Below, piece by piece: positions 3,801 to 12,390 of a stretch of DNA of 13,111 nucleotides. Position 1 is the first letter of the stretch. Every line of letters begins with the position of its first letter. The notes beneath the pieces were generated by a model. The model searched no databases. It saw nothing but the letters and a program-made list of their open reading frames with translations, and was not told the origin of the DNA. The DNA is from DATDCY01 sp031406795 [NCBI: Candidatus Rokuibacteriota bacterium] (GTDB lineage: Bacteria; JAUVQV01). The stretch spans positions 1 to 13,111 of the forward strand of contig JANOHV010000110.1 of NCBI GenBank assembly GCA_031406795.1, given 5' to 3'. Both the position numbers and the translations under genes were made by a program.

Positions 3801-5463
3801 ATGACGAAGACAGCCTCCAAGGGTGCTCCGGACAGGAAGCGGGCCCCGTCCCGCTACAGCCTGCGCGTTCGACTCGGGATGACCCTGGCGCTCGCCATCG
3901 CCGGGGCCTCGATTGCTTTCGCGTTCCTGATCATCGCGCACAGCCGCAATGAGGTGCTCGCCCAGACCATCCTGCAGAACCAGCAGACGGCCGAGGTCAT
4001 CCGTCGCAGCACCCGCTACGCCATGCTGCAGAACCACCGCGAGCAGGTGGTGCAGATCATCGAGGCGGTGAGCCGCACCCGCAGCATCGAGAAGATCCGC
4101 ATCTTCGACCGGGAGGGCGAAATCATCACCTCGACGCAGCCGGGCGAGATCGGCACCCGCGTCGACAAGAGCGCCGAGGCCTGCTATCACTGCCACGCGG
4201 CCGGCCGGCCGCTGCAGCAGATTCCCGGAACGGACCGGCACCGCATCTACCGCTCGCCCAGCGGGCACCGGATCCTCGGCACGATCGACGTCATCCGCAA
4301 CGAGCCGGCCTGTTCGAACGCGGCGTGCCACGCGCACCCCGCCACGGTCACCGTGCTCGGCGTACTCGACATCGCCTACTCGCTCGACGCCCTGGACGCC
4401 AGCGAGCGCAGCGACATCCTGGCCGTAGTCGGGATCGCCTTTGGCCTGGGGCTCGCGATCTTCCTGACGGTGACGCTGCTGGTCAGCCGCCTGGTCTACC
4501 AGCCCCTCGGCGACCTCGAGGCCGGCGCACGGCTCGTCTCCGCCGGCGATCGGGAGCACCTGATCCCGGTGCGCCGCCCCGACGAGATCGGCCACCTCGC
4601 CGATTCGTTCAACCGGATGACCCTCGCGCTGAAGAATTCGGAACGCGACCTCGCCGAGTGGGCCCACACCCTGGAGCAGAAAGTCGCCGAGAAGACGGCC
4701 GAACTGCGGGTCGCCGAGGGCAAGACCGTCCAGGCCGAGAAGCTATCTTCGGTCGGGTTGCTCGCCGCGGGGATCGCCCACGAAATCAACAACCCGCTCA
4801 CCGGCGTATTGACCTTCGCCCACCTGGTGCGCGTCAAGCTCCCCGAGGGGAGCGCCGAGGCCGAGGACATGGACATCATCATCCGCGAGACCAAGCGCTG
4901 CGCGGCCATCATCCGCCGGCTGCTGGACTTCGCGCGAGAGAAGAAACCCGAGATCGTCAGCGGCGACCTCAACGCCGTGGTCCGCGAGACCGTCCAGTTC
5001 GTCGAGCACCAGGCCGGCTTCCAGAACGTCGCCTTCGCGGCCGAGCTCGACCCCGAACTGCCGCCGATCTTCATGGACCCGAACCAGCTCAAGCAGGTGA
5101 TCATGAACCTGCTCGTCAACGCCCGGGACGCGATGAACGGTCGCGGTCGGCTCGCCGTGCGCTCGCGCCGCTCCCCGAGCCTGGTCTCGCCGGGAGCCGG
5201 CCGCCGCGCGGTTCCCGCGGTCGAACTGACGTTCACGGACACCGGCTGCGGCATCCCGGCGGAGGACCTGCCGAAGATCTTCGACCCGTTCTTCACGTCG
5301 AAGGAGCCGGGCAAGGGCGTCGGGCTGGGGCTGTCGGTCGGCTACAGCATCGTCAATGCGCACGGTGGAACGATCGACGTCGAGAGCGAGTTCGGCCGCG
5401 GCACGACATTCCGCATCGTACTGCCCGTGGAGGGCGTGTCGCCCGAGGGCGCAAAGGAGACCC

Positions 5464-5489
<26 letters not shown>
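3801..5489 (+). CDS. Membrane histidine kinase with periplasmic diheme-c sensor region
   Basis: A 562-residue kinase. TM1 is at about residues 23-45, and a periplasmic region of about 160 residues follows to TM2 (about 206-229). HAMP spans about 230-283 and a short coiled coil about 284-312. HisKA has phospho-acceptor H327 in GIAHEINNPL. The ATPase domain has N-box N440, G1 DTGCGIP (480-486), F-box FDPFF (494-498) and G2 GVGLGLS (506-512), so the kinase looks complete. The periplasmic part has a standard heme-c site, C128-YH-C131-H132. It also has a longer-spaced one, C171-SNAA-C176-H177 (CX4CH, a spacing known in cytochrome c3-type proteins). Two covalently bound hemes are therefore likely; redox potential, gas or another ligand is the probable signal (inference). 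An AGGAG at 3793-3797 precedes the ATG. The next gene begins inside its 3' end, so the two are cotranscribed. Its target is most likely the adjacent NtrC-type regulator. Confidence 0.9.
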
Positions 5490-6885
<1,396 letters not shown>

Positions 6886-7503: not shown

Positions 7504-8247
7504 ATGAAAGCCGGATGCGAGCACGAGAAGATTCGCGGCGCCGTCCAGAAGCGTTACGCCGAAATAGCCGGAGGTGCCGTCGGCAAGTTTGCCTATGCGA
7601 CCGGGCTTGAAGGGGCGCATGCCCTGAACTACGACCCCGCCGTTCTTTCGCTCATACCGCCCGACCTGATGAAGTCATTCTGCGGCGTCGGCAACCCCTT
7701 CCTGGCCGGACCGCTGGGCGAGGGTGAATCCCTGCTCGATGTCGGCTGCGGTGCGGGTATCGATCTGATCGTCGCCAGTCACTCGATCGGCAGCACCGGC
7801 CGGCTCTGTGGCATCGACATCACGCCGGAGATGCTGAGAATCGCACGGGAGAACGCGGCCGCCGTGGGCCTGCACAACGTCGATCTGCGGGAAGGGAGTG
7901 CCGAGGCCATCCCCCATGAAGCCCACTCTTTTGACGTCGTCATCTCGAACGGTGTGCTGAACCTGTCCACCGAGAAGGAACGCGCCTTCCGGGAGATATT
8001 CCGAGTGCTGGTCCCCGGGGGGCGGCTTCAGTTCGCGGACATCGTTTTCGAGGGTGAACAGGCGCGGGAGGCGCCCTGCACCCTCGCGGCCTGGTCCGAC
8101 TGAATCGGCGGGGCGATCCCCGTGCGGGATCTCCTGGACATGATCGGGCGGGCCGGATTTCAGGACGTCGAGTTCCTCGGCAGGACACCGGTTTCCACTT
8201 CCCGCCAGACCCATGGCGCGACTTTCCGCGCCCGGAAACCGGGGTAG
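7504..8247 (+). CDS. ArsM-like SAM-dependent methyltransferase, probable selenoprotein (in-frame UGA = Sec200)
   Basis: Class I SAM methyltransferase of the ArsM/UbiE group. ATG 7504 follows a strong GGAGGAGGAG. Seen in order: FCGVGNPF (59-66, comparable to the GCGNP region of arsenite methyltransferases), motif I LLDVGCGAG (77-85), ITPEMLRIAREN (106-117), DVVISNGVLNLS (144-155) and VPGGRLQFADIV (170-181). The frame then meets TGA at 8101-8103 after AAWSD. It continues as IGGAIPVRDLLDMIGRAGFQ and on to TAG at 8245-8247, with GC-rich third positions. In ArsM proteins this place reads roughly C-x-G-A-L, and the cysteine binds As(III). The UGA therefore replaces a functional Cys, and residue 200 is probably selenocysteine. 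A hairpin with SECIS geometry follows. The full length is 247 residues; stopping at UGA would remove the conserved end. Substrate (arsenic, selenium or other) is not known. A recent nonsense mutation is the alternative. Confidence 0.8.
8101..8131 (+). promoter_or_regulatory. Candidate bacterial SECIS element: UGA codon plus downstream hairpin
   Basis: The UGA is 8101-8103. GATCCC (8115-8120) and GGGATC (8126-8131) form a perfect 6-bp stem around the loop CGTGC (8121-8125). The apical loop lies 18-22 bases after the UGA, essentially where it lies in E. coli fdhF, and has a G at its second position. These fit the published bacterial SECIS pattern: stem-loop just inside the coding region, apical loop about 16-37 bases past UGA, and a G among the first two loop bases. 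A competing 4-bp GGGG/CCCC hairpin (8110-8121) also exists. SelB recognition cannot be tested from sequence alone. Confidence 0.65.
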
Positions 8248-8260
8248 CGACCGGGACCGC

Positions 8261-8291
8261 GGGCTCGCCGCCACCTCCGGGCGGCGAACCC
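8261..8291. terminator. Convergent intergenic hairpin, possible bidirectional terminator
   Basis: GGGCTCGCCGCC, a 7-base loop, GGCGGCGAACCC: a 12-bp stem with one C-A mismatch at its fourth pair. It lies between the methyltransferase stop (8247) and the stop of the convergent response regulator gene (8319). No T-tract follows on either strand, so intrinsic termination would be weak. Position and symmetry are the main support. Confidence 0.45.
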
Positions 8292-8318
8292 GTTGGGAGA
8301 TGCAGCCGGACCTTGCCC

Positions 8319-8930
8319 TCACCGCCTGGTCATGAACGACTTGTACCCGTACTTGCCGATCGCCCAGGCAGCCACGAAGGGGAACGCCACGATATAGGCC
8401 AGGCCGATGAAGGGCGCGGCGAAGAAGAGCGCAACGTTCTTCGCGACATTCTCACGTGCTTCGGCAGCCAGGGCAGGCTCCGCCGCCAGCTCCGGAGCGG
8501 TCGTCGTCGCGGGGGAGATCAGCGCCAGCGCGGACAACCTGATCGCCTCGGCGGTCTCGTCCCGCTCGCGCAGCACGCGCTCGGCGTTCGAGATAATCGC
8601 CTCCGGAGAGAGCGGCTTGTGCAGGAAACCCGCCACACCGAGATCGCGCGCCCTTTGTTCACTCGCTTCCGTCCCGTACCCGGTGATGACGACGACCGGC
8701 ATCTCCGGATGGCTCTTCTTCATCCGCGAGGCCATCTCCAGCCCGTCCATGCCGGGCATACGCAGGTCGGTGAACACCATGTCGTAACGCTTCTGGTCCA
8801 ACTCCTCCATCGCCTCGGACCCGCTCATCGCCTCCCGCACCAGGTACCCGTGCTCCGTGAGCACGCGGTTGATGCTCCTCCCGACCACCGCGTCGTCGTC
8901 CACCACCAGCACTCTGCGTGACTCGAACAT
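8319..8930 (-). CDS. Response regulator receiver with C-terminal membrane tail (last gene of cytochrome operon)
   Basis: A 203-residue protein. The receiver domain (about 1-122) has D11/D12, phospho-acceptor D55, T83 and K105, so it should be phosphorylatable. No DNA-binding or enzymatic output domain follows. Instead, an Ala/Glu-rich linker (about 123-160) leads to a hydrophobic segment, LFFAAPFIGLAYIVAFPFV (168-186), and a short basic end. The receiver would therefore be tethered to the cytoplasmic side of the inner membrane (inference). The tail is nearly identical to that of the first gene of the operon (11762-12319), much more so than the receivers are. ATG 8930 is preceded by AAGGAGGT on the minus strand at the right spacing; the open frame upstream is not needed. 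It sits 62 bases after the single-domain regulator gene. A role in controlling a membrane redox complex is a guess. Confidence 0.88.
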   Translation of the reverse strand: MFESRRVLVVDDDAVVGRSINRVLTEHGYLVREAMSGSEAMEELDQKRYDMVFTDLRMPGMDGLEMASRMKKSHPEMPVVVITGYGTEASEQRARDLGVAGFLHKPLSPEAIISNAERVLRERDETAEAIRLSALALISPATTTAPELAAEPALAAEARENVAKNVALFFAAPFIGLAYIVAFPFVAAWAIGKYGYKSFMTRR

Positions 8931-8992
8931 GACCGACCTCCTTGCCGTTGCGCTCGTCGGGCGTCCCTTCAACCCGCCGCCATCCCGGGCCT

Positions 8993-9403
8993 TCACCCGG
9001 CCGCGGACTCGCACTGGATCGTCCAGCGCTTCTGCATCCAGGCTCCGGTGGTCGCCCTGATCACCGCTTCGGGCACCACCGGCTTCGCCAGGTAGTCATA
9101 CGCGCCGAGCTTCACCGCCTCCTTGGCCGTCTCGATCGACGGGTACCCGGTGACCACCACGACTTCGCTCTGGGGCCACCGCTGCTTGATCGCCCGCAGG
9201 ACTTCCATCCCGTCCATGCCGGGCATCCGCATGTCCAGCAGCACCACGTCGAAGCCGGCATCGCCCATCAGGTCGAGCGCCTCGGCCCCGTTGCCCGCCG
9301 CCATCACGCGGAATCCGTCCGCCGAGAGCACCCGCCGGTAGCCGAGGCGAACCACTTCCTCGTCGTCCACCACCAGAACTCGAATCCTCTCTTCCATGAC
9401 CAT
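8993..9403 (-). CDS. Single-domain response regulator (CheY/NtrC-type receiver)
   Basis: A 136-residue stand-alone receiver with D13/D14, phospho-acceptor D57, T85 and K107 all present. After the receiver there is only a short tail ending CESAAG, so it has no visible output domain. It may relay phosphate or bind a partner. The ATG at 9403 overlaps the stop of the cytochrome b gene in a TGATG junction, with AAAGGA just upstream, which fixes the start better than the GTG at 9406. A second ATG at 9397 is an alternative. The receiver resembles those of NtrC-type regulators (RMPGMDGMEVL, GAYDYLAKP). Its kinase is not identified in the operon. Confidence 0.9.
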   Translation of the reverse strand: MVMEERIRVLVVDDEEVVRLGYRRVLSADGFRVMAAGNGAEALDLMGDAGFDVVLLDMRMPGMDGMEVLRAIKQRWPQSEVVVVTGYPSIETAKEAVKLGAYDYLAKPVVPEAVIRATTGAWMQKRWTIQCESAAG

Positions 9404-10038
9404 CACGTCCTTTTCGCGTGCTCGAACTCTTCCTCGTAGCCGGTGAACATCGCCTTGAAGTGCGCGCCCGGGGTGTGCCCGAGCGTCGCGAGGTAGGCGT
9501 GGACCGGCAGGAAGGCCGTGAAGAAGATGAAGAACAGCACGTGGAGCGTGTCCACGGTGCGCACCCCGCCGAGCGCCGCCACCGCGCCCGAGAAGCGCTG
9601 CACATCCCAGAGCAACAACCCCGAGAGGAACTGAAGGGGCACCACAAGTAGCATGATCAGGTCGTAGGCCAGCTTCTGCATCGGGTTGAACTTGGTGTAC
9701 GCCGAGGCGTGGTGGGGGTTCGCCGAACCGCGGAAGATGCCGTAGCCGTAGTACACCGCCTGGTTGATGGCGTCGGTGTAGAATTTCCTGGGGCGCAGCT
9801 CCATCTGGTAGTTCTTGATCTTGTCCGAGGTGAGATAGAAGACGAGCCAGAGCAGGTAGCTGCCCATCAGCGCGAAGCCGACGTAGTTATGGAGCCGCAC
9901 CGAGGCCTCGAACGAGGCCAGCCCGATCAGGTCGCGGTAGCGGATCTGCAACCCCGAGAGGATGAGCAGCACGAACCCGAGCGCGTTCGTCCAGTGCCAG
10001 ATCCGCACCGGCAGCGGGTGGATGTAGATCCTTTTCAT
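9403..10038 (-). CDS. Membrane cytochrome b subunit (FdnI/HydC-like cytochrome b561 family)
   Basis: A 211-residue integral membrane protein with about four transmembrane helices (near 18-35, 52-70, 125-144, 163-185). The likely b-heme axial histidines are H15 in the RIWHWTN motif, H50 in RLHNYVGF, and H166 and H180 in DTLHVLFF and FLPVHAYL. The RxWHWxN start and the paired histidines are typical of the cytochrome b subunits of formate dehydrogenases and Ni/Fe hydrogenases, which exchange electrons with quinones. It follows the multiheme cytochrome gene by 6 bases, with a GAAGGGTGA ribosome-binding sequence inside that gene's end. The two probably form one quinone-linked membrane complex, comparable in idea to the Geobacter Cbc complexes (inference). 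No dehydrogenase subunit is in the operon. Confidence 0.9.
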   Translation of the reverse strand: MKRIYIHPLPVRIWHWTNALGFVLLILSGLQIRYRDLIGLASFEASVRLHNYVGFALMGSYLLWLVFYLTSDKIKNYQMELRPRKFYTDAINQAVYYGYGIFRGSANPHHASAYTKFNPMQKLAYDLIMLLVVPLQFLSGLLLWDVQRFSGAVAALGGVRTVDTLHVLFFIFFTAFLPVHAYLATLGHTPGAHFKAMFTGYEEEFEHAKRT

Positions 10039-10044
10039 GACGGT

Positions 10045-11727
10045 TCACCCTTCCTTGCGGGCGCGCGCGGCCCGGAGGCGGAATGTCAGATGAATGGCGA
10101 CGACCGAAAGGCCGCCGGCGACCGCCAGCACGAGCAGCCAGTCGAGCACCCCGTGCCTCGTGGCCCCGAGGGCGTAGAAGCCGTGGATCGACATCACGGA
10201 AGCCGAGTCGGCGAGCATCCCCGGGGAGGCGTCGAAGCGCTTCGGGCGGTTGTCGTCGCGGGCGAGCGTCAGAACGACGCGATCGAACGCCGTGGAGCCA
10301 TTCGTGTGGCAGGTCTCGCAGGCCCGGACCGCGCCGGACTTCGCGGCGAGACGGTGGGCGTCGACGCCCCGGGCGACCTGTAGCCGGCCGGTCACGTCGA
10401 GCTTGGCCGCAGAGGCCTGCCGCCGGGACTCGAGCCGGCGCATACTCGACCAGAGATCGAGACCGCTCACCCCGCTGCCTGACGGGTCGAAGGCGGCGCG
10501 CGCATTGCCGTCGAACAGGTCGCCAACCTCGCGCTCGGTGAGCGCCCGGCCCGTGCCCTCCTCGACGAGGCTCAGGGCGACCACCCGCTCCGCCTGCGGC
10601 GCGTGGCACGCGGCGCAGGAAACGACGTCCAGGTGCAGTGCGGCGTTCGGCAGCCAGGCCGAATGGACCGCCACCGCGGTCGGGTGACAGCCGATGCAGG
10701 CCGCGCGGACCAATTCGGGGCGGGCGCTGCCCTGCACATCGTGGGCGCGGTGGCAGTCCGAGCACAACGGCGCGTCGAAGTGATCGCCTGAGGCGCGGGC
10801 CTTGCCGTGCATGCTCCCCGCGTACGCCGCGAAAACCTTCTGGTGACAGGCGCGGCACGGCGTTCCGGCGACGGAGGCGAACCGCTCCTTCGGCGCCACC
10901 TCGTGCGCGCTGTGGCAGTCGGTACACCCCGGAGCCCCCGCAACCCCCGCCCGCAGCAGTGTGAAATGAACGCTCCCTTCCGCCTGGCGCAGCTTGTCGG
11001 CGTGGCAGCGGGCGCAGATCCGGACGGCCGCGATGGCGCGGTTGCCCTCGTCGGCGCTGGTTTCGGCCGGGTGCGCGGTCGCCGAAAAACCGGTGTGGCA
11101 ATCGGAACAGACGTGGTTCGGGTGCACGGAGGCCTTGAGCTTGAGCGCCTCCACCCCGAGTTCCACCGAGGAGCCGTCCGGGCGCTGCAACTTCAGAGCC
11201 CGGGAGTGACAGCTCAGACAGTATTCATCGGGCGCCGCGCCGCGCTTCCAGGCGGCAACGCTTCTCACTCCGTGGGAGCCGTGACATTCGATGCACGCAA
11301 GCTGCTGGTCCTCGAAAACGACGGCCGCGTGCGGGGAATGTGCGCGCAATCCCTCTGCCGGATGGCACGCGAGGCAGTTGCGCGATGCGTCAAGGCGGAA
11401 TGCTTCCCGGCTCGCCGCGGGATGCCCATCGGGGTGTGCGTCGAGCCGCACCCCGCGGTGACAGCCCCGGCACTCGATGCCGCGGTGGGCCGAACCGGCG
11501 AGGTCGGCCGCGCTCACCGCGAGCGACACCTTCTCGCCGTTCGCCGTCGTCACCGAGAGACCGACGTCTTCGTGGCACGAGAGGCAGGCCCGCCAGGTCG
11601 GCCCGGAAGCTGCTGCAGCGGCGCCTGCTCCGGCCGGCAGCGACAGCGCCGCGAGGAGGAGCAGCGCGAACGAAAGACGAAGGAGGGGCGACCGCCCCCC
11701 CCTCGCCAACCGATTCCTCGTGATCAT
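10045..11727 (-). CDS. Membrane-anchored multiheme c-type cytochrome (13 CxxCH motifs)
   Basis: A 560-residue protein. ATG 11727 gives a clear signal peptide: basic MITRNRLARGGR, a Leu/Ala core at about 15-30, and likely cleavage in the Ala-rich stretch near 35-41. A longer frame to a GTG at 11775 would only add residues before the basic region. Thirteen CxxCH motifs begin at residues 48, 86, 118, 145, 170, 207, 238, 268, 291, 322, 344, 371 and 470, so it can carry 13 covalent hemes. A stretch of about 95 residues without heme sites (376-469) precedes the last motif. A membrane helix follows at about 529-548 with a basic cytoplasmic end, so the heme domain faces the periplasm. It lies 34 bases after the upstream regulator gene and 6 bases before cytochrome b. 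Likely role: moving electrons between the quinone pool and periplasmic carriers. Direction is not known. Confidence 0.92.
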   Translation of the reverse strand: MITRNRLARGGRSPLLRLSFALLLLAALSLPAGAGAAAAASGPTWRACLSCHEDVGLSVTTANGEKVSLAVSAADLAGSAHRGIECRGCHRGVRLDAHPDGHPAASREAFRLDASRNCLACHPAEGLRAHSPHAAVVFEDQQLACIECHGSHGVRSVAAWKRGAAPDEYCLSCHSRALKLQRPDGSSVELGVEALKLKASVHPNHVCSDCHTGFSATAHPAETSADEGNRAIAAVRICARCHADKLRQAEGSVHFTLLRAGVAGAPGCTDCHSAHEVAPKERFASVAGTPCRACHQKVFAAYAGSMHGKARASGDHFDAPLCSDCHRAHDVQGSARPELVRAACIGCHPTAVAVHSAWLPNAALHLDVVSCAACHAPQAERVVALSLVEEGTGRALTEREVGDLFDGNARAAFDPSGSGVSGLDLWSSMRRLESRRQASAAKLDVTGRLQVARGVDAHRLAAKSGAVRACETCHTNGSTAFDRVVLTLARDDNRPKRFDASPGMLADSASVMSIHGFYALGATRHGVLDWLLVLAVAGGLSVVAIHLTFRLRAARARKEG

Positions 11728-11761
11728 GACTTCCCGCTCCCCGGCTCGCGGTTCAGATCCG

Positions 11762-12319
11762 TCACCGGGAGCCAAGCGCCAGGCGCACGCAGCAGCGCGC
11801 GATCATGTAGGCGCCAACGAACGGAAACGCCACGATGTACGCCAGTCCGATAAACGGAGCCGCGAAAAAGAGCGCGATGTTGCGCGCGATGCTCTCCGTC
11901 GCTTCGATCGGGACGGCCGCGCCGACGACCGCGGCCGGGCCGGCCGTCACCGCCGCGATGCGTCCCATGACCCGGGCGGCGACTTCCTCGATGATCGAGG
12001 GCGTGAGCGGCTTCTGGATGAATTCGGCGACACCGATCTCCCGGGCTTGCTCCTCAGCTTCCTGCGTCGCATAACCGGTGACGACCACGATCGGCAGCCA
12101 GGGATTCATCTCCTTGATCCGGCGCGCCACCTCGAGACCGCCCTGACCGGGCATGCGCAAGTCGGTGAACACCATGTCGAACTCGGCGCCAGCGTACTTT
12201 TCGAACGCTTCCCTCCCGCTCAGGGCGGTGTCGACCCGATACCCCTTGTTCGTGAGCACCCGTTCGAAGCTGCTTCCCACCACCTGATCGTCATCCACCA
12301 CCAGAATCCTTTTTTCCAT
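11762..12319 (-). CDS. Response regulator receiver with C-terminal membrane tail (first gene of cytochrome operon)
   Basis: A 185-residue paralogue of the protein at 8319-8930. The receiver (about 1-120) has D9/D10, phospho-acceptor D53, T81 and K103. A short Ala/Val-rich linker leads to the hydrophobic segment LFFAAPFIGLAYIVAFPFV at 150-168. This is identical over 19 residues to the other protein's tail, and the end, near 174-185, is basic. No DNA-binding domain is present. ATG 12319 lies a few bases after a GAGGGGGTGA ribosome-binding sequence; upstream in-frame codons, including a GTG 9 bases earlier, are less likely starts. It is promoter-proximal in the operon, about 60 bases downstream of the predicted sigma-54 transcription start. 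A membrane-tethered receiver is inferred; its partner kinase and output are unknown. Confidence 0.88.
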   Translation of the reverse strand: MEKRILVVDDDQVVGSSFERVLTNKGYRVDTALSGREAFEKYAGAEFDMVFTDLRMPGQGGLEVARRIKEMNPWLPIVVVTGYATQEAEEQAREIGVAEFIQKPLTPSIIEEVAARVMGRIAAVTAGPAAVVGAAVPIEATESIARNIALFFAAPFIGLAYIVAFPFVGAYMIARCCVRLALGSR

Positions 12320-12390
12320 CGTACTCACCCCCTCTTCCCGTTGTGTTGGTTGCTGTTTCGTCCTTCCCGTCAATCCATGACTGGGGATAT

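Follow-up and report, generated by a model that had tools for sequence, protein, structure and literature searches.

In CmArsM, a solved arsenite methyltransferase, the arsenic sites are Cys72, Cys174 and Cys224: the mutants C174A and C224A have no activity, and C72A has none on arsenite (PMC3877260). As(III) ligand roles of ArsM cysteines are also described in PMC5552862. Selenocysteine (Sec) forms of such enzymes are on record. Eight Sec arsenite methyltransferases were counted in an ocean survey of 2008 (PMC2398784) and 41, from 39 organisms, in a survey of 2016 (PMC5029168). A 2026 review, citing Fomenko 2007 for Sec ArsM, lists a Sec arsenite (S-adenosyl)methyltransferase with the motif UxxG, for example WP_011987699.1, together with three fused families (PMC13188914).

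Relation to described families

We analysed a 13,111-nucleotide stretch of a Candidatus Rokuibacteriota contig (hereafter the window), in which an ArsM-like methyltransferase gene carries an in-frame UGA. The original prediction called it a new or little-described selenoprotein. Because Sec arsenite methyltransferases are already in the reviews and surveys cited above and in NCBIfam models, the selenoprotein claim itself is not new.

The window protein resembles the listed Sec arsenite methyltransferase (PMC13188914) in being ArsM-like with one in-frame UGA, and its U-I-G-G fits UxxG; in contrast, it scores 195.8 bits against NF008823 (ArsM), under the cut-off of 263, with WP_011987699.1 compared by its description. 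The three NCBIfam models that it matches best all describe selenoproteins: NF041537 (ArsM_AhpD_UU), NF041536 (ArsM_DUF2284_UU) and NF047649 (MTase_UXPK_star), which all 39 members of set A3 also match. Their methyltransferase part aligns over window residues 6–246, but the window protein matches only their first 249 positions and stops at residue 247, without a further domain or the UXPK end, and its scores (257.6, 251.8 and 239.9 bits) lie under the respective cut-offs (510, 575 and 460). Since the stand-alone form falls under every curated NCBIfam cut-off compared, annotation may cut it at residue 199.

An in-frame UGA followed by a constrained tail

The gene and its parts around the UGA are as follows.

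7504–8247, + strand: stand-alone ArsM-like SAM methyltransferase gene, ATG start, TAG stop, 247 residues with Sec200 (Pfam, NCBIfam and PDB profiles; structure model)
8101–8103, + strand: in-frame UGA at residue 200, probably read as selenocysteine (motif U-I-G-G)
8104–8244, + strand: 47 conserved codons 3' of the UGA

Frame translation runs from the ATG at 7504 through the TGA at 8101–8103 (codon 200) to the TAG at 8245–8247. The gene begins 69 bases after a GNAT gene, and an AG-rich stretch resembling a ribosome site lies 5' of its ATG. The frame is thus open beyond the TGA, as originally described, although the 48 codons given there include the stop and comprise 47 sense codons. GC3 of the gene is 0.81 after the UGA versus 0.78 before it.

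To assess conservation of the UGA column, we collected 39 loci in one scan of genome contigs. The eight best (L001–L008) were the closest relatives found, and all eight had TGA at the codon-200 column, as did 41/41 distinct rows of the clade defined below by Cys60; L009 and L010, which are about 40% identical, had Cys. Across 72 homologue rows the column held UGA in 49 and Cys in 23, the two states that the original prediction had proposed to look for in relatives. A profile search of 395 genomes of the G004 phylum and 245 genomes of the G005 phylum gave 37 hits above 240 bits, each with exactly one internal in-frame TGA. By diagnostic residues the Cys60 clade was present in at least 21 of the 395 and at least 14 of the 245 genomes, centres included; these are lower bounds, with weaker TGA-bearing hits lacking a locus left unclassified. 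In the G007 phylum (search at E 1e-60) it was found in the centre genome only (1/299). Viral contigs searched contained no relative of the methyltransferase, and of the 600 plasmid records with matches none reached 60% identity.

The codons after the UGA are also conserved, with 81% identity between the window and L001 over 47 codons. We compared pN/pS pairwise between the 120 codons before the UGA and the codons after it. The values before and after were 0.23 and 0.17 (window–L001), 0.32 and 0.27 (window–L003), 0.31 and 0.29 (window–L004), 0.19 and 0.28 (L003–L004), and 0.22 and 0.34 (L001–L004); they were 0.33 and 0.35 for window–L005 and 0.36 and 0.47 for window–L007, two pairs in which silent sites are near-saturated. 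The tail is constrained, in some pairs slightly less than the part before the UGA. The loss of purifying selection in close relatives that the original prediction had named as evidence against itself is not what these comparisons gave.

These data bear on whether the TGA is a true stop, in which case the gene either has decayed or makes a protein of only 199 residues. Most window genes (10 of 13) do end in TGA, and the energy of the hairpin described below is by itself ordinary. Against this stand the retention of the UGA and the later codons across contigs from several phyla and the pN/pS of 0.17–0.29 after the UGA relative to the three closest relatives, and we consider termination at this codon very improbable.

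Some relatives call for separate mention. In L008, around 8001–8708, the methyltransferase frame is broken twice 5' of the UGA, through sequence error or decay. L001 and L002 carry near-identical methyltransferase genes on contigs of metagenome-assembled genomes that bear the labels Dehalococcoidia and Desulfonatronospira, a pattern suggestive of misbinning or of a recent transfer. The gene is present two or three times in each of the genomes G286, G244 and G338, and every copy has a single in-frame TGA.

A covarying hairpin, and selenium machinery in relatives

The original prediction placed a hairpin with bacterial SECIS geometry directly after the UGA.

8115–8131, + strand: SECIS-like hairpin, stem 8115–8120 with 8126–8131, loop CGTGC 8121–8125 starting 17 bases after the UGA

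The fold of the window hairpin is not unusual in itself (z −0.92; 42 of 200 shuffles fold equally well or better), and Rfam gave no SECIS match, so support for the hairpin comes from covariation over 24 window-type sequences. In these, 96.5% of stem cells are paired and both sides change at four of the six pairs. Their covariation score was reached by 0/500 shuffles, and a measure of further pair types by 23/500; sliding the stem out of register lowered pairing to 28–71%. A G-U is invariant in the hairpin loop. Among 47 folded UGA sequences, the apical loop begins 16–23 nt after the UGA in 45, the exceptions being L077 and L078, whose minimum-energy folds lack such a loop, and G is among the first two loop bases in 44. 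A stem is also present in a second subclade of 17 sequences (16 distinct); there the loop lies near +23 and 126 of 128 cells are paired, but few pairs vary. The predicted hairpin is therefore present, covarying and with an apical G, but with ordinary energy in the window and no counterpart in Rfam.

As a separate comparison, UGA sequences folded at a mean of −16.5 kcal/mol versus −10.1 kcal/mol for Cys sequences; this contrast was discarded because the two sets differ in GC (0.62 versus 0.51).

We searched the relatives' genomes for selenium machinery. SelB was over the cut-off in seven of the eight genomes of L001–L008 (G001 had none over it) and in 31/33 further clade genomes, where the exceptions were G475, with a selB fragment under the cut-off, and G486, with no selB. 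The clade contrast is weak, since 25/33 genomes without a clade hit also carry selB. In the L001–L008 genomes tRNA-Sec scored above 60 bits in five and 51–52 bits in two, and in G005 fell short of the cut-off, a threshold that 5/14 control genomes also passed, so marginal scores mean little.

A UGA read as some other amino acid without selenium, through a reassigned code or plain readthrough, is likewise very improbable: TGA terminates most window genes, distant homologues have Cys at column 200, the hairpin after the UGA covaries and relatives' genomes carry selB. Judged from the shared UGA column, the constrained tail and the covarying hairpin, the gene at 7504–8247 very probably encodes a selenoprotein, in line with the original prediction.

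A proposed two-ligand site in place of three thiols

The protein has the ArsM SAM methyltransferase fold by profiles and by structure comparison. A model built with Cys in place of Sec reached a mean pLDDT of 93.2, and its best structural match was CmArsM (4fr0, Z 25.4). In its fold, its SAM domain and the placing of residue 200 at Cys224, the window protein is like CmArsM and further arsenic methyltransferases of known structure (4fr0, 6cx6, 5evj, 8xt7); in contrast to the CmArsM chains of 377–383 residues, it has 247. Profile alignment puts window residues 200, 150 and 62 at CmArsM Cys224, Cys174 and Cys72; the 50-residue spacing between the last two cysteines fits exactly, with the chain index being the native number plus one. 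The codons concerned, from the alignment and the homologue table, are the following.

7681–7683, + strand: Cys60 codon, invariant in the clade (homologue table)
7687–7689, + strand: Val62 codon, at the place of CmArsM Cys72
7951–7953, + strand: Gly150 codon, at the place of CmArsM Cys174

Residue 200 therefore falls on a cysteine column with an As(III) ligand role in CmArsM (PMC3877260), as the original prediction had it. To describe the protein as an ArsM that carries Sec in its metalloid site is nevertheless too simple: in place of the three As(III) cysteines it has Val62, Gly150 and Sec200, the first two replacements are clade-wide, and Cys60 is new.

The combination of Cys60, Val or Ile at 62, Gly150 and UGA200 occurs in 43 of the 72 rows (41 distinct). 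Five further Sec rows have Ala or Val at position 60 (L059, L061, L064, L068 and L087), which indicates that Sec can work without Cys60, and L008 is broken at this site. Among the 23 Cys200 rows, 18 have both Cys72 and Cys174 and four have Gly150 (L084–L086 and L090), L011 being a fragment; Cys rows from Bacillota have Cys72 and Cys174 in 25/25 cases. Cys60 was present in 41/41 distinct clade rows, all with UGA200, and in 0/47 Cys200 homologues with the column covered, a distribution that ties Cys60 to Sec200.

In a tree that left out five rows (L002, L008, L011, L040 and L070), the Cys60 Sec clade needs two changes, not one, because the very long branch of L090 (Cys, Gly150) sits at the clade base; one change suffices in only 6% of 200 bootstrap trees. 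The five Sec rows without Cys60 (UIAG or UIGG) form a second, separate group, placed in the tree near Gly150 Cys homologues.

Genomic neighbourhood

No arsenic family was found among the window proteins scanned (10 in one profile scan and 7 in another). Across 26 loci no neighbour family occurred in more than five, apart from ORFs overlapping the methyltransferase gene; a VTT-domain protein and PEPCK were each found at four. A Pfam tally covered 92 neighbour ORFs of relatives, hand-picked from 129 within about 2.2 kb, with the window's six and others, many of them short, left out; no arsenic family was among the 25 listed of its 98 families. At least one such family was nevertheless hidden in the tally: in single scans, ArsR-family regulators lay near the relatives L105 (6199–6552) and L106 (3209–3541), and a heavy-metal P-type ATPase near the methyltransferase in L109. 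The nearby ArsR-family ORFs fit a metal role and name no substrate.

Other genes were observed around these methyltransferases. The LpxK encoded in the window reaches no more than 48% identity across 198 genomes of the G004 phylum and 40% in 12 others. At L105 6199–7296, genes for an ArsR-family regulator and a membrane protein with a VTT domain stand in a row 5' of the Sec methyltransferase. In the window, a histidine kinase containing the haem-type motifs CYHCH and CSNAACH and an NtrC-type sigma-54 regulator are encoded 5' of the methyltransferase at 3801–6885 on the + strand, and related regulators lie near the methyltransferase in L006 (4233–6401) and L083 (1712–2626). In two response regulators on the − strand (8319–9014 and 11762–12373), the receiver domain is followed by an unusual hydrophobic tail that both have in common (FFAAPFIGLAYIVAFPF). 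At 9403–11775 (− strand), a b561-type cytochrome adjoins a protein that contains 13 CXXCH motifs, and genes for response regulators flank the two on either side.

Proposed mechanism and substrate

We consider it likely that this gene encodes a stand-alone selenoprotein methyltransferase in which Cys60 and Sec200 together bind a soft substrate that receives a methyl group from SAM. Following the conservation pattern, the UGA at 8101–8103 would be read as Sec by SelB and tRNA-Sec, guided by the downstream hairpin, yielding a protein that profiles and model predict to adopt the ArsM-type SAM-dependent methyltransferase fold. Its reactive group would be Sec200, which aligns with Cys224, an As(III) ligand in CmArsM. 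The homologue table shows that the Cys174 and Cys72 ligands have been lost, and that an invariant Cys60, which precedes the Cys72 position by two residues, accompanies Sec200; if the two residues pair in space, they would form a two-ligand soft site. The substrate might then be methylarsenite or a similar trivalent organoarsenical, or else a soft species of some other metal or metalloid. Arsenite seems less likely than these, because CmArsM uses three thiols for it. The arsenic link itself rests mainly on homology.

The protein could instead be an ordinary arsenite methyltransferase, in which Sec merely replaces the catalytic Cys and As(III) is methylated stepwise as by CmArsM. The closest families are ArsM models, the fold matches with Sec200 at Cys224, NCBIfam and reviews give Sec relatives this name (PMC13188914) and ArsR-family ORFs lie near L105 and L106. 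We nevertheless think this unlikely: Gly150 and Val62 replace Cys174 and Cys72, which CmArsM needs on arsenite (PMC3877260), the score falls short of the ArsM cut-off and the window proteins scanned include no arsenic family.

The methyltransferase might also have a non-arsenic substrate; candidates include species of selenium, tellurium, mercury or antimony, and organic thiols or selenols. Such a role would agree with the loss of two of the three As ligands, with the tie between Cys60 and Sec200 and with the lack of a conserved arsenic neighbourhood at the relatives' loci. Nothing points directly to another substrate, however, the nearest structures are As(III) methyltransferases, and one relative (L007) comes from Anaerobacillus arseniciselenatis, an organism name that alone does not show a role. 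We regard a non-arsenic substrate as a real possibility, somewhat short of probable.

The lost ligands and Cys60 of this clade may already be in print. We tentatively suggest that the members of this clade, encountered here only in Sec form and at present named arsenite methyltransferases, may not be such enzymes, and that the Cys60–Sec200 pair might replace the three-thiol site to serve another step or another soft substrate. A clade named for arsenite methylation has two of the three As ligands gone and a new Cys that occurs only with Sec, and this association of Cys60 with Sec200 offers a direct way to test the role of the selenium.
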